DNA of 64,000 bases from the NCBI RefSeq assembly GCF_025770765.1, contig NZ_JANZKY010000010.1:62001-126000 (forward strand), written 5' to 3'. The notes under the pieces are model-generated. The model was not told where the DNA came from. It searched no databases and was given only the letters and a program-made list of their open reading frames with translations. Made by a program: the position numbers and the translations under genes. This document shows positions 2 to 12,494 of this stretch, in pieces. Position 1 is the first letter of the stretch; the number at the start of each line of letters is the position of its first letter. Source of the DNA: Propionivibrio soli (GTDB lineage: Bacteria; Pseudomonadota; Gammaproteobacteria; Burkholderiales; Rhodocyclaceae).

Positions 2-274
2 ATCGGCGGCACGCTGCTCACGGGCGGTGTCGGCTATTTGGCGGGCACTCTGGTCGGCGTGCTGATCCTCGGCGTCATCCAGTCGTTGATCGCCTTCGAC
101 GGCAGCTTGAGCTCCTGGTGGACCCGCATCGCCATCGGCGTCCTGCTGTGCCTGTTCTGCTTGATGCAGCGCTTCTTCGAACACGGCGGCAGCAAACTCA
201 GCGCACTTTTCTCGTACTGGAACAAGCCCGAGGAAGAAGGCTCGGCCGGCAGCGGAGCGCAACCGGCGCGCTGA
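2..274 (+). CDS. yjfF: Sugar ABC transporter permease, C-terminal fragment (YjfF/RbsC-like)
   Basis: The gene enters from the left edge, so only the last 90 codons are visible. The fragment starts in a glycine-rich membrane segment (GGTLLTGGVGYLAGTLVGVL), continues with hydrophobic helices, and ends in a charged cytoplasmic tail (NKPEEEGSAGSG). This matches the last helices of BPD_transp_2 permeases of the ribose/galactofuranose class, and YjfF is the closest family I can recall. It would import a monosaccharide across the inner membrane with an ATPase and binding protein encoded left of the window. The downstream ROK regulator and galactose genes fit a galactose or galactofuranose substrate, but that is inferred from context. 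The subfamily call is moderate; sugar permease is secure. Confidence 0.7.
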   Translation: MGGTLLTGGVGYLAGTLVGVLILGVIQSLIAFDGSLSSWWTRIAIGVLLCLFCLMQRFFEHGGSKLSALFSYWNKPEEEGSAGSGAQPAR

Positions 275-292
275 GAGGCGATTCGTCCGGCT

Positions 293-1354
293 CTACCGCC
301 GGACGAACTCGTCGAGCACGAGCCGGGCCGCTCCCGCGACGTAGGCCTCCGCGTCGAGCGTTTCGTAGCGAACGTCGCAGTCGAATCCGGGGTTGACGGT
401 TTTCTCGATCGTCTCCCGGATGGGTACAAGAAGTTGTTGGCCAGCCTCCCCCAACTCGGCGTAAATCGCCACATGCCGTATATCGAGCACGAGCATCATC
501 GTGGCGACGGCTCTTCCTAGAAGTTCAGCCGCCGCCTTCACTTTCTTCTGCGATACCTTGTCGCCATCCGTGGCGGCCGCCAATTCGGCCGCCAGCGTCT
601 CTCTGTTCACCACGGTTTCGAGACATCCGGTTTTTCCACACCGACATAGGACTCCATTGCGTTCGACGGGGAAATGGCCGATTTCTCCCGAGCAACCGCG
701 CTCGCCCTGGTAGATGCGGCCATCCATCACGATCCCTACTCCAATGCCGGAACGGATTGTCACCACCAGCAACGAACTGGGCGCAGCGGGAAGACTCGCG
801 ATGGCGGCCGTAAAACAACGGATATTATTGTCGACGGTGATTGGCATTCCGACACGCGCGGCCAGATCCTTCGCGATACCCGCGAACGGCACTCCCTCCC
901 GGCCAAACAGGTGGCTCGGTACGCCAACGCCGCCGCCTTCCAACGTAATTCCGAGTTTCGCGGCCTTCTGAGCCGCTTGCCGCAGCAGACGTTCTAGGAA
1001 AGCGGTCAAGTCAGCAACGTTCTTGAACTGCGGCGTGGACAGTTCGCTCTCGAACAGGCATTCCCGCGATAGGTTGCGGATATTGACCCGCGCACGGCTG
1101 TATTCGACGTCGATCCCCACCGCTGCGGGTTTCGTAGAAGACAGCGCATAGACCATGGCCGACTTCCCGGCTTGGTTTTGGCGTTCGTTGCCGGAAGAGA
1201 CGATAACCCCCTGCTCCTCCATGCGCGTCATGAGTTTGACCGCCGTAGCCCAGCCCATTCCGCAACGCTGCGTGATGTCTCTCTTCGATAACGGCGTTGC
1301 GGCGACAGCTAGTTCATTGAGAATAAGCCGTTCATTATCTGTCAGCATCAACAT
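293..1354 (-). CDS. ROK-family transcriptional regulator
   Basis: The protein of 353 residues has an N-terminal winged helix (roughly residues 5-60) followed by a ROK sugar-kinase-like domain. The zinc-binding ROK signature is intact (GHFPVERNGVLCRCGKTGCLE, in shorter form CRCGKTGC), as is the acidic GECG-like stretch before it (GERGCSGEIGH). ROK regulators such as NagC and Mlc repress sugar genes and release DNA when they bind a sugar or sugar phosphate. The ATG at 1354 is preferred over the GTG six bases upstream because GAGGG lies at a proper distance. It is convergent with the sugar permease and divergent from the ABC-sulfatase operon, with paired dyads in between, so it is the obvious candidate regulator for both. 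The ligand is unknown. Confidence 0.88.
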   Translation of the reverse strand: MLMLTDNERLILNELAVAATPLSKRDITQRCGMGWATAVKLMTRMEEQGVIVSSGNERQNQAGKSAMVYALSSTKPAAVGIDVEYSRARVNIRNLSRECLFESELSTPQFKNVADLTAFLERLLRQAAQKAAKLGITLEGGGVGVPSHLFGREGVPFAGIAKDLAARVGMPITVDNNIRCFTAAIASLPAAPSSLLVVTIRSGIGVGIVMDGRIYQGERGCSGEIGHFPVERNGVLCRCGKTGCLETVVNRETLAAELAAATDGDKVSQKKVKAAAELLGRAVATMMLVLDIRHVAIYAELGEAGQQLLVPIRETIEKTVNPGFDCDVRYETLDAEAYVAGAARLVLDEFVRR

Positions 1355-1360
1355 GATCAC

Positions 1361-10068: not shown

Positions 10069-10296
10069 CTGCCGCCGCCCATCCCCGCCGGATCTGGCGG
10101 GGAACGATGTTCAGAAGTGCGCCAAGGACGACCAATCGGGATTTGTACTTCACGGCTGATTTCAATGAAAAATCGAGCGGTGGCGAACCGGCCCGATCCG
10201 CGGAAAATGCAAATCAGAGATAATTGCCTGAACGTCCTTGCCCACGTTTCTCAGTGGCATCAATGATTATGACGACAAGAATGGACCGTTAAAACC

Positions 10297-11331
10297 ATGT
10301 TGTTCGATCCTACAGATCATCCGCACCGGCGGCTCAATCCACTCACGGGTTCCTGGGTTCTCGTTTCTCCTCACCGCGCCAAGCGTCCCTGGCAAGGGCA
10401 GCAGGAAGCGCCTGATCGGTCCGCCCGCCCGGCGCACGATCCCGAGTGTTACCTCTGTGCCGGGAATAAAAGGGTGACCGGAGAACTCAACCCCGATTAC
10501 CGTGGGACCTTCGTATTCACCAACGATTTCGCTGCGCTAACCGCCGACGCGCCGGATGCCCCTCCTCCCTCGAATCCGCTATTCCGTGCCGATACGGCAC
10601 GCGGTACAAGCCGCGTCATCTGTTTCTCGCCCGATCACAGCAAGAGTCTGCCGGAACTTGCATTACCCGCGATCCGCGAAGTCATAGACACCTGGCGTTC
10701 ACAGAGCGCCGAACTTGGGAAGCAATACCCTTGGGTGCAGGTGTTTGAGAACAAGGGCGCGATGATGGGGTGTTCGAACCCGCACCCGCACGGCCAGATC
10801 TGGGCTAACAGTTTCCTGCCTAACGAAGCTGCGCGCGAGGATGAAAACCAGCGCGATTATCTTGCGGCCAACGGACGCTCCCTGCTGCTCGATTACGTGC
10901 GGTCCGAAGCCGGTGGAAGCCGCGTCGTGGTCGACACCGACAAGTGGCTCGCCGTCGTTCCGTACTGGGCTGCGTGGCCCTTCGAGACACTGCTGCTCCC
11001 GAAAGACCCAGTCCGCCGACTACCGGAACTCGATCCCGCGCAGCGTGCCGATCTCGCCATCGCGTTGAAAAAGCTGACGAGCCGCTACGATAATCTCTTT
11101 CAATGTTCGTTCCCGTACTCGATGGGCTGGCACGGCGCGCCGTTCGACGGCAAGGAGAACCCGCACTGGCAACTGCATGCGCACTTCTACCCGCCCCTGT
11201 TGCGTTCGGCGAGCGTGCGCAAGTTCATGGTCGGTTATGAAATGCTTGCCGAGCCCCAGCGGGACCTGACGCCGGAACAAGCGGCTGAGCGCCTACGCGC
11301 GCTCAGCGACGTCCACTACAACGAATCGTGA
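10297..11331 (+). CDS. galT: Galactose-1-phosphate uridylyltransferase
   Basis: Leloir enzyme of 344 residues that exchanges UMP between UDP-glucose and galactose 1-phosphate. The active-site motif is NPHPHGQIW, with nucleophile His165 (second His of HPH at 163-165), corresponding to His166 in E. coli GalT. An N-terminal zinc-type pair (CYLCAG) and a C-terminal histidine motif ([11 protein letters not shown]) are also present. Length is close to that of the E. coli enzyme (348). No good ribosome site is seen before the ATG. The gene overlaps or abuts galK, so translation is coupled. No galE is found in the window, so the epimerase needed to recycle UDP-galactose must lie elsewhere. Confidence 0.95.
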
Positions 11332-11339
11332 TCCGTACC

Positions 11340-12494
11340 ATGACGCCACTCCAGAAAACTCGCCAGACTTTCACCGCTACATTTTCTGCACAGCCACAGC
11401 TATCGGTCCAGGCGCCCGGCCGCGTTAACCTGATCGGCGAGCACACCGATTACAACGATGGTTTCGTGCTTCCCTGCGCGATCGACTACCACACGGCAGT
11501 CTCTGGTTCGCAACGCAGCGATCGCCGGGTGCGCGTCATTGCTGCGGACTACGACGGAGAGCGCGACGAATTCTCGCTCGACGCACCAATCATTCCGAAC
11601 CCCGACAAGCTGTGGGCGAATTACGTCCGAGGCGTCGTGAAATACCTGCTCGAAGCTGGCGCAAACCTCACCGGAGCCGACCTTGCGATCAGCGGCAACG
11701 TGCCGCAGGGCGCCGGCCTCAGTTCCTCGGCCTCGCTTGAAGTTGCCACGGGGCAGTTCTTCAAGGCGCTCGGCAATCTCGCCCTCGACGCCACCGAACT
11801 GGCGCTGATCGGTCAGCGTGCAGAGAACCGTTTCGTCGGCTGTAACTGCGGCATCATGGATCAGTTGATCTCGGCGCGCGGCGAAGCCGGCCATGCCTTG
11901 CTGATCGATTGCCGTAGCCTCGCTGCGCAGTCCGTCTCCATGCCCGAAGGCATCGCGGTCGTCATCATCAATTCCAATGTCCAGCGCGGCCTGGTGGGTA
12001 GCGAATACAACACCCGCCGCCGCCAGTGCGAGGAAGCGGCGCGTTTCTTCGGCGTGAGGGCGCTGCGCGACGTAGACATGCCCACTTACGCCGCCAAGAG
12101 CGCCGGTCTCGACCCTGTCGTCGCCCGCCGCGCACGCCATATCATTACCGACAGTCAGCGTGCGCTCGACCTCGCCCAGGCCTTGCCCGCCGGCGACATG
12201 TCGCGCATCAGCCGGCTGATGGCAGACTCGCACACCTCGATGCGGGACGATTTCGAAATCACCTGTCCCCAGGTCGATGCGCTGGTAAAGATCGTCAAGG
12301 ACGTCGTCGGCGAAGCCGGCGGCGTGCGCATGACGGGTGGCGGTTTCGGCGGCTGCGTGGTGGCACTGGTGCCGAACGAACTTGTTACACGCGTCGGCGA
12401 AGCCGTCGCCGCTCGCTACACGGGTGAAACCGGACTGAGTGCAACGACGTACGTGTGCCACGCCTCCGCAGGCGCCGGCGTTTGTCCGTACTAG
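11340..12494 (+). CDS. galK: Galactokinase
   Basis: GHMP-family kinase of 384 residues that phosphorylates galactose at C1. The galactokinase signature [15 protein letters not shown] lies at residues 27-41, the ATP-binding loop is GAGLSSSAS, and the third GHMP motif is MTGGGFGGC near the C-terminus. The ATG at 11340 makes the N-terminus align with E. coli GalK ([10 protein letters not shown] against the E. coli lead-in before QAPGRVN). A GTG at 11328 would overlap the galT stop as GTGA and is the alternative. It is the last gene of the plus-strand run and is convergent with a chemoreceptor gene. Confidence 0.95.

Follow-up and report, generated by a model that had tools for sequence, protein, structure and literature searches.

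We analysed a 64,000-nucleotide stretch of the Propionivibrio soli genome, here called the window, whose left end carries a gene for a YidJ-type sulfatase together with its maturase, an ATP-binding cassette (ABC) importer, a ROK-family regulator and galactose genes. Within the window, the work dealt mainly with the first 16.9 kb. Genes were identified with Pfam and NCBIfam models, with scores given in bits against the curated cut-offs, and signal peptides were called by our own reading of the protein starts, not by a predictor. Coordinates are in window numbering unless a locus label (L0xx, a contig stretch extracted from a genome) is given, and G6xx labels denote congener genomes. The features are as follows.

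2..274, plus strand: last part (3') of yjfF, which encodes a permease of a sugar ABC importer of the YtfQ-YtfR-YtfT-YjfF type (464 bits on the YjfF model, against a cut-off of 363)
293..1360, minus strand: transcriptional regulator of the ROK family, encoded divergently to the importer operon (PF00480, 1.8e-32)
1554..1582, plus strand: sigma-70-like promoter, TTGACT-17-TAATAT (same layout in G646)
1582..1611, plus strand: candidate ROK operator TCGCATCACGATATATCGCACAACGATAAA, adjoining the -10 element (conserved in G646)
1733..2488, plus strand: ABC ATPase 1, SsuB/TauB-like (PF00005; 92% identical in G646)
2507..3316, plus strand: ABC permease 1, TauC/SsuC-like (PF00528; 91% in G646)
3325..4176, plus strand: ABC permease 2 (PF00528; 82% in G646)
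4196..4960, plus strand: ABC ATPase 2 (PF00005; split between two contigs in G646, the pieces 89% and 95% identical)
4987..6072, plus strand: binding protein of the NMT1/SsuA/TauA family, signal-peptide-like start (PF09084; 81% in G646)
6100..7614, plus strand: YidJ-type S1 sulfatase, Cys-type (C52-T-P-A-R56), no signal peptide (PF00884 1.9e-61, PF16347; 79% in G646)
7647..8882, plus strand: anaerobic sulfatase-maturating enzyme (anSME), a radical S-adenosylmethionine (SAM) protein (TIGR03942; 64% in G646)
8923..10068, plus strand: aldose 1-epimerase (GalM), signal-peptide-like start (PF01263; ribosome-binding-site-like AAAGGAGGG)
10083..10102, plus strand: G+C-rich inverted repeat in the galM-galT gap, CCCCGCC-GGATCT-GGCGGGG (from the sequence; no T run)
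10297..11331, plus strand: galT (TIGR00209, 612 bits; adjoins yjfF in five congeners)
11328..12494, plus strand: galK (75-80% identical galK in eight other congeners)

All the genes named in a first-pass annotation of this DNA (sulfatase, maturase, importer, galM-galT-galK, a sugar permease and a ROK regulator) are present where it placed them, and what it saw as a sugar permease is the 3' end of yjfF, at the left edge. From ATPase 1 to galM, successive genes stand 8-40 bp apart; galT and galK overlap by 4 bp.

The sulfatase is 65.9-66.5% identical to Escherichia coli YidJ over all 504 residues, as shown by a tblastn search of a plasmid collection (246 records, best 40 rows considered) in which four E. 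coli records carry yidJ. Among the best 40 of the 246 records, E. coli is followed by haloarchaea at 43.5% and 40.4%, and the remainder lie at or below 33.5%. By this similarity the window protein is a YidJ ortholog. Three E. coli entries of PLSDB (NZ_CP134663.1, NZ_OL790696.1 and NZ_CP141089.1), of 4.8-4.9 Mb, are filed as plasmids and look like chromosomes. The protein starts straight in the catalytic domain, at the first catalytic strand (MNKPNIVMIMTD...), and all five aligned YidJ-type sequences begin without a signal peptide; E. coli YidJ is likewise tabulated without a twin-arginine translocation (Tat) signal in the accessible part of PMC3027627. The claim that the sulfatase is YidJ-type and not exported therefore held, its second half by our reading of the start. 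Ten residues of the catalytic set (D12, C52, P54, R56, K100, H102, H195, D285, H286 and K298) do not vary among the five YidJ-type sequences or between these and two annotated choline sulfatases, and they include counterparts of the metal and general-acid residues named in the available text of PMC5870055. With the C/S-x-P-x-R motif and the metal and catalytic residues complete, the protein has the features predicted for a class I (formylglycine) sulfatase. The maturase scores 451.5 bits on the anSME model TIGR03942 in the window and 473.4 bits in G646 (cut-off 349.45). The genome of the window has PF00884 matches at two places only, and the other place (L033 9027-10649, G000:C34) encodes a lipid A phosphoethanolamine transferase, with 612.6 bits over a cut-off of 500; a second sulfatase was thus not found.

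The top PDB matches of a YidJ profile were an iota-carrageenan 2-sulfatase (228 bits), a GlcNAc-6-sulfatase (225 bits) and 'Sulfatase_S1_30A' (223 bits). The PDB entries 3b5q and 2qzu, which bear the name 'putative sulfatase yidJ', scored 174 bits, below seventeen other rows; because of this low score, the PDB name is misleading and is no proof of orthology to YidJ. GlcNAc-6-sulfatase-type specificity was rejected as a candidate, since the catalytic Lys is surrounded by D-K-R there and by S297-K298-G299 in YidJ. An Asp/Arg pair flanking the catalytic Lys is presumably the sugar reader of the S1_11 sulfatases. The accessible part of PMC10154612 names an Asp/Arg, without residue numbers. The C-terminal tail (residues 454-504, RPWR...MGxFRPxPxDGxSPxVRDYDTGLPTxGVK) is near-identical in the window, G646 and E. 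coli YidJ, and it is largely absent from the two haloarchaeal relatives; by analogy, it is perhaps an oligomerisation or lid element like that of choline sulfatase.

The choline sulfatase BetC resembles the window enzyme in being an S1 sulfatase without signal peptide and with the same catalytic residues, and the accessible text of PMC5870055 describes it as an S1 sulfatase with a C-terminal tail. The import and hydrolysis of choline-O-sulfate was one rival explanation. The window sulfatase reaches 215 bits on the choline sulfatase model TIGR03417, and of two Glu near the place of Glu386 (the choline-binding residue of the Sinorhizobium meliloti enzyme) in the BetC controls, one aligns with E378 of YidJ. 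In contrast, that model has a cut-off of 433.45, which the BetC controls pass with 695 and 814 bits; the window and G646 reach 215 bits each and E. coli YidJ 202, less than one third of the controls' scores. The identity to BetC is 30%, no bet or cho genes were recognised in the cassette, and seven positions (T72, N74, D104, H106, D192, E193 and H196) are shared by the window, G646 and E. coli YidJ, whereas both choline sulfatases have other residues there. Choline sulfatase identity is thus disfavoured by the model score with its positive controls, and we regard choline-O-sulfate as a very improbable substrate.

In order to see which part of the locus is conserved, we compared 28 congeners, in nine of which galK was found, and read the surroundings of all nine. 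The genes yjfF, galT and galK are consecutive in G644, G646, G648, G652 and G654, with a yjfF-galT gap of 28-218 bp, and ytf genes stand beside galT-galK in divergent orientation in G637 and G641 (and in G636, within the limit of its contig). In the window genome, the ROK-to-galM block stands between yjfF and galT. At the gal loci of the eight other galK-bearing congeners, no match to the cassette proteins was found, the exception being an ABC ATPase paralog with 38% identity at another place on the gal contig of G646. G646 is the only other congener with the sulfatase. Its contig L053 ends with the ROK gene (69% identical), ATPase 1, permease 1, permease 2 and the start of ATPase 2, and its contig L024 begins with the end of ATPase 2, followed by the binding protein, the sulfatase and the anSME, at the identities listed above. 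The conserved unit is ROK-ABC-sulfatase-anSME, because this unit recurs at a different site in G646 without gal genes, and its recurrence argues that the cluster is more than chance. The occurrence of the cassette at the gal site in one of the nine galK-bearing congeners could also arise from an assembly or binning artefact in which a foreign fragment was joined into the ara/gal genes. Against this, both flanks are ordered as in the congeners without the cassette, the G+C content is even across the region (0.565-0.637 per gene) and a congener carries the same cassette at 64-95% protein identity, which leaves an artefact with next to no probability. The edges of the block (250-300 and 10041-10320) share no words of 8-14 bases, and a comparison for direct repeats inside each edge region revealed nothing telling.

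Both copies of the cassette adjoin sugar uptake genes, of the YjfF type in the window and of the RhaS/AraH type in G646. Upstream of the window (L002), yjfF is the last gene of an araB-araD-araA-ytfQ-ytfR-ytfT-yjfF run, in which AraB, AraD, AraA and YjfF score above the NCBIfam cut-offs; YtfR (677 bits, cut-off 850), YtfQ (395, cut-off 510) and YtfT (349, cut-off 535) are assigned by their best models, yet below cut-off. We take the YjfF-type system to be a galactofuranose importer. Upstream of the G646 cassette lie the RhaS/AraH-type sugar ABC system and a regulator of the AraC type (98 bits on the AraC model, against a cut-off of 208); an isomerase-like protein there has 34 bits to the sulfoquinovose isomerase SftI (cut-off 700) and 31 to arabinose isomerase. 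The stretch L053 3580-8429 of G646 encodes a transaldolase/FSA-like protein, a TauD-family dioxygenase and the isomerase that is very weakly SftI-like, and its genes possibly belong to another organosulfur or rare-sugar pathway. The galK of G646 (L025 12970-14122) gave two overlapping matches in different frames, an apparent frameshift that reflects an assembly error or a broken gene. In the window, GalM has its nearest relative within the same genome on another contig (50% identical, G000:C23). Its signal-peptide-like start, a point absent from the first-pass annotation, suggests that this GalM is apparently exported, so that mutarotation would be periplasmic.

By its domain (PF00480 113.5 bits, cut-off 22.9), the regulator belongs to the ROK family, most members of which are regulators or kinases of the sugar type. 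Models of an N-terminal helix-turn-helix fall under their cut-offs (HTH_24 20.3 of 21.9 bits, MarR_2 19.9 of 27), and the protein resembles the sugar regulators Mlc and NagC at 91 and 87 bits, far under cut-off. The intergenic regions between the ROK gene and ATPase 1 of the window and G646 align, and both contain -35 and -10 elements separated by 17 bases (TTGACT/TAATAT in the window, TTGACA/TAATGT in G646) followed, from the end of the -10 element, by a palindromic stretch (TCGC...CGATATATC...CGATAAA), with identity at 27 of 38 positions. Without gaps, the best-matching 34-mers of the two regions share 26 bases, whereas 40 mononucleotide shuffles averaged 19.8 and never exceeded 23. Since promoter-like sites in the region are not above chance (3 found, 3.7 expected), the support for this promoter is its conservation in G646. 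The operator motif occurs once in the window with none expected, the pattern being drawn from the window and G646 sequences themselves, and exact matches to its 10-base core were found, among 53 loci, only in those with the two cassette promoters. We infer that the palindrome at 1582-1611 is the ROK operator. No sign of an operator common to the ara/gal promoters was seen, as the other fetched loci had no exact match to the core.

The importer belongs to the class of the TauABC and SsuABC alkanesulfonate importers, with which it shares the families of the binding protein, permeases and ATPases, and it differs from them in having two permeases and two ATPases and in scoring below the cut-off of every curated model. 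The TauB model gave 188 and 217 bits for the ATPases (cut-off 357), the TauC model 149 and 153 bits for the permeases (cut-off 342) and the SsuA-family model TIGR01728 67 bits for the binding protein (cut-off 163.5), and the best models for three of the four core subunits were SaoA/SaoP, likewise below cut-off. TauA and SsuA are weak PDB matches of the binding protein, and an S-x-x-H loop aligns among the three. In the accessible part of PMC6906117, the sulfonate contacts of TauA are Gln30 and the main-chain amides of Gly61, Gly79 and Thr132. A binding protein of the sulfonate family would fit any small sulfated compound. The window operon also differs from the Tau and Ssu systems in that a sulfatase is present and no sulfonate-cleaving enzyme was recognised in it.

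This importer class leads to the main rival explanation, in which the cassette imports assorted aryl or alkyl sulfate esters for sulfur scavenging, YidJ frees sulfate for cysteine synthesis and the sugar genes nearby have no bearing on its role. In Pseudomonas, the ats genes serve such sulfate-ester scavenging, and AtsA is a cytoplasmic sulfatase with a dedicated sulfate-ester ABC importer, AtsRBC; relative to these, the window cassette has a ROK regulator, an anSME, a YidJ-type enzyme and a sugar-gene neighbourhood. Sulfur scavenging would also agree with the different sites of the two cassettes, with a TauD-family gene about 8 kb beyond the ROK gene in G646 and with a SulP-family permease directly after the anSME there (L024 4623-5918; PF00916 291 bits; NCBIfam sulP 312, cut-off 380), which could serve the export of freed sulfate or sulfate import. 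In addition, E. coli yidJ was disrupted as a candidate sulfur-supply gene in one study, according to the accessible part of PMC12585060. On the other side, the regulator is a ROK protein and not a CysB/Cbl-type LysR protein, and the low Cys+Met signature of sulfur starvation was not seen in the binding protein (3.6%) or the sulfatase (3.8%), compared with 3.1% in the nearby XylF and 3.5% in YtfQ (whole precursors). An anSME requires SAM and Fe-S clusters, which would be odd under sulfur starvation. We consider sulfur scavenging rather unlikely.

Relatives in other organisms bear on the substrate. An importer lies directly alongside in four of the five YidJ-type loci (window, G646, E. coli and Halomontanus), and its class varies: TauABC-like ABC in the window and G646, an SSS symporter (YidK) in E. 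coli and an Opp-type ABC importer in Halomontanus, where it follows the YidJ relative (46% in the alignment). In Halocatena, the YidJ relative is followed by a GH88 protein and an AGE-type epimerase, and no importer is annotated in 25 kb of an incomplete gene table. The E. coli yidL-yidK-yidJ (yidF) locus shares with the window a YidJ without signal peptide and an importer gene directly upstream, the yidJ start overlapping the yidK stop by 4 bases, and it differs in its symporter, in an AraC-type regulator and in yidF. The yidF gene (L009 14796-15293) is annotated as radical SAM and might encode the YidJ maturase of E. coli, but it aligns just to the C-terminal half of anSME (32% over 81 residues plus a second short stretch). 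Pfam models gave it no hit at 0.001, and it resembles a remnant that lacks the radical-SAM domain.

YidK matches best, in the PDB, a bacterial sodium/glucose cotransporter (2xq2/3dh4, 187 bits) and SGLT1 (161 bits), with iodide (54 bits) and choline (at most 23 bits) symporters far behind. We take 2xq2/3dh4 to be vSGLT, a galactose symporter. Relatives of YidK were found in 35 plasmid records, four of them from E. coli, and seven of the other 31, chosen across genera, were opened. An alpha-galactosidase gene adjoins the symporter gene in four of the seven loci, three from Vibrio and one from Cetobacterium, and in one of the four galE-galT-galK come next. As given in the accessible text of PMC5293155, a metabolome study predicted a galactose role for YidK, citing its genomic context for galactose, and described for a yidK mutant both a galactose-linked metabolome profile and a growth phenotype on this sugar. 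Both the growth data and the alpha-galactosidase loci keep the idea of galactose alive independently of the gal linkage in the window.

Based on these results, we propose that ROK, ABC importer, sulfatase and anSME form a self-contained cassette, with the importer operon divergent from the ROK gene. In the periplasm, a small sulfated sugar or glycoside would be captured by the binding protein, and the TauABC/SsuABC-like importer would carry it into the cell. YidJ, its active-site cysteine converted to formylglycine by the anSME, would remove the sulfate in the cytoplasm, after which the sugar would enter central metabolism. ROK would sense the sugar and repress the importer promoter via the palindrome adjoining the -10 element. 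In the window genome, the cassette and the apparently exported mutarotase stand inside the arabinose/galactose run, where a galactose product would feed GalK-GalT. The Bacteroides S1 sulfatases acting on sulfated Gal or GalNAc share the superfamily and the chemistry with YidJ, and some desulfate monosaccharides, but they are mostly periplasmic or surface enzymes in the accessible text of PMC10154612, unlike the cytoplasmic YidJ. As a whole, the import of a small sulfated sugar by the cassette and its cytoplasmic desulfation by YidJ is the best explanation, with a probability of roughly 0.6. The order of events in the first-pass annotation, import first and desulfation inside the cell, is well supported by inference from five of five sequences without signal peptide and from the importers alongside; the importer is likewise predicted to transport a sulfate ester.

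The nature of the sugar must be weighed separately. That the substrate is a sugar seems to us probable, and galactose is the favoured sugar, while the galacto configuration is still a tentative call with less than even odds. Several results weigh against the proposed substrate. The family of the binding protein is known for sulfonates. In G646, the gal locus lies on yet another, third contig, and none of the cassette genes stands between its yjfF and galT, so that the cassette stands beside galTK in one of the two genomes that have it, and no galM like that of the window was found in G646, although this genome is 70% complete and the absence is therefore weak evidence. No gal genes lie in the 25 kb examined around E. 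coli yidJ. Linkage to the gal genes, which the first-pass annotation had used as evidence for the substrate, is thus present in the window and weakened by its relatives; the annotation's contrary case, that sulfatase operon and gal genes are never linked, is also not what was found, given the one linked genome of two. The galM-galT gap is 228 bp and contains the inverted repeat. The proposed shared control region fits the ABC-sulfatase-anSME block, perhaps with galM; galTK may or may not share it, or a transcript with the sulfatase. The operator core has no exact match in the fetched ara/ytf or gal loci, and thus no regulation shared with the gal genes is visible. The yidK defect on plain galactose may be just YidK carrying galactose, and the accessible part of PMC5293155 makes no mention of yidJ. 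Three of the seven opened YidK-relative loci have no galactosidase gene (one has an alpha-glucosidase with glycerol genes, one an inositol operon and one no sugar genes). The accessible literature on yidJ as a sulfatase names no substrate, in line with the first-pass statement that it is undefined, and a literature search on a cytoplasmic galactose sulfate sulfatase in Escherichia coli found no report.

In a further rival explanation, the sulfated substrate is a sugar other than galactose (for example a pentose, a deoxyhexose or another hexose), the cassette standing beside whichever sugar operon suits the host. The G646 copy adjoins the isomerase-like gene and the RhaS/AraH-type system, and the window copy adjoins araBDA as well as gal, but the YidK evidence from E. 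coli points to galactose; we hold another sugar to be possible, though doubtful. Taken together, these results confirm the observations of the first-pass annotation with refinements, and its interpretation, a sulfated galactoside imported and desulfated inside the cell, is partly supported.

Among the sampled genomes, the sulfatase is rare and its distribution patchy. At E<=1e-60 it was found in 1 of 249 family genomes and 1 of 399 order genomes, both being its own, and in 2 of 28 genus genomes; at 1e-70 it was found in 1 of 369 class genomes, again its own. As a control, an E. coli-like IbpA was found in 0 of the 369, which suggests that the class sample has no close E. coli relatives, and its silence therefore says little about the Enterobacteriaceae. 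In complete E. coli genomes, yidJ was matched in 5082 of 5426, with at least 80% of the length in 5066. A wider scan of genome contigs gave four loci at 26-29% identity to the sulfatase, and no YidJ orthologs were found in viral contigs (37 stretches tested). The binding protein is present in 2 of 59 relatives at 1e-40 and in 1 of 399 genomes of the order at 1e-25, and plasmid searches with the importer permease, ROK and binding protein gave no match within the thresholds used.

In the window, a desulfation cassette that brings its own regulator stands in a pre-existing run of sugar genes. The arrangement of an importer with a cytoplasmic sulfatase is already known from AtsA-AtsRBC, and the value of the locus is a new context for an E. 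coli orphan: it is a second, well separated context of YidJ with a different importer, and with the YidK data it points to a sugar, possibly galactose. This turns the orphan enzyme YidJ into a short panel of testable substrates. It is also conceivable, though we think it unlikely, that YidJ proteins are in general cytoplasmic sulfatases of galactose sulfate (or of sulfogalactosides) and that dedicated importers from unrelated classes (SSS, TauABC-like and Opp-type) supply them. If so, E. coli would have an uncharted route to take up and desulfate sulfated galactose freed by other microbes from mucin or sulfolipids.

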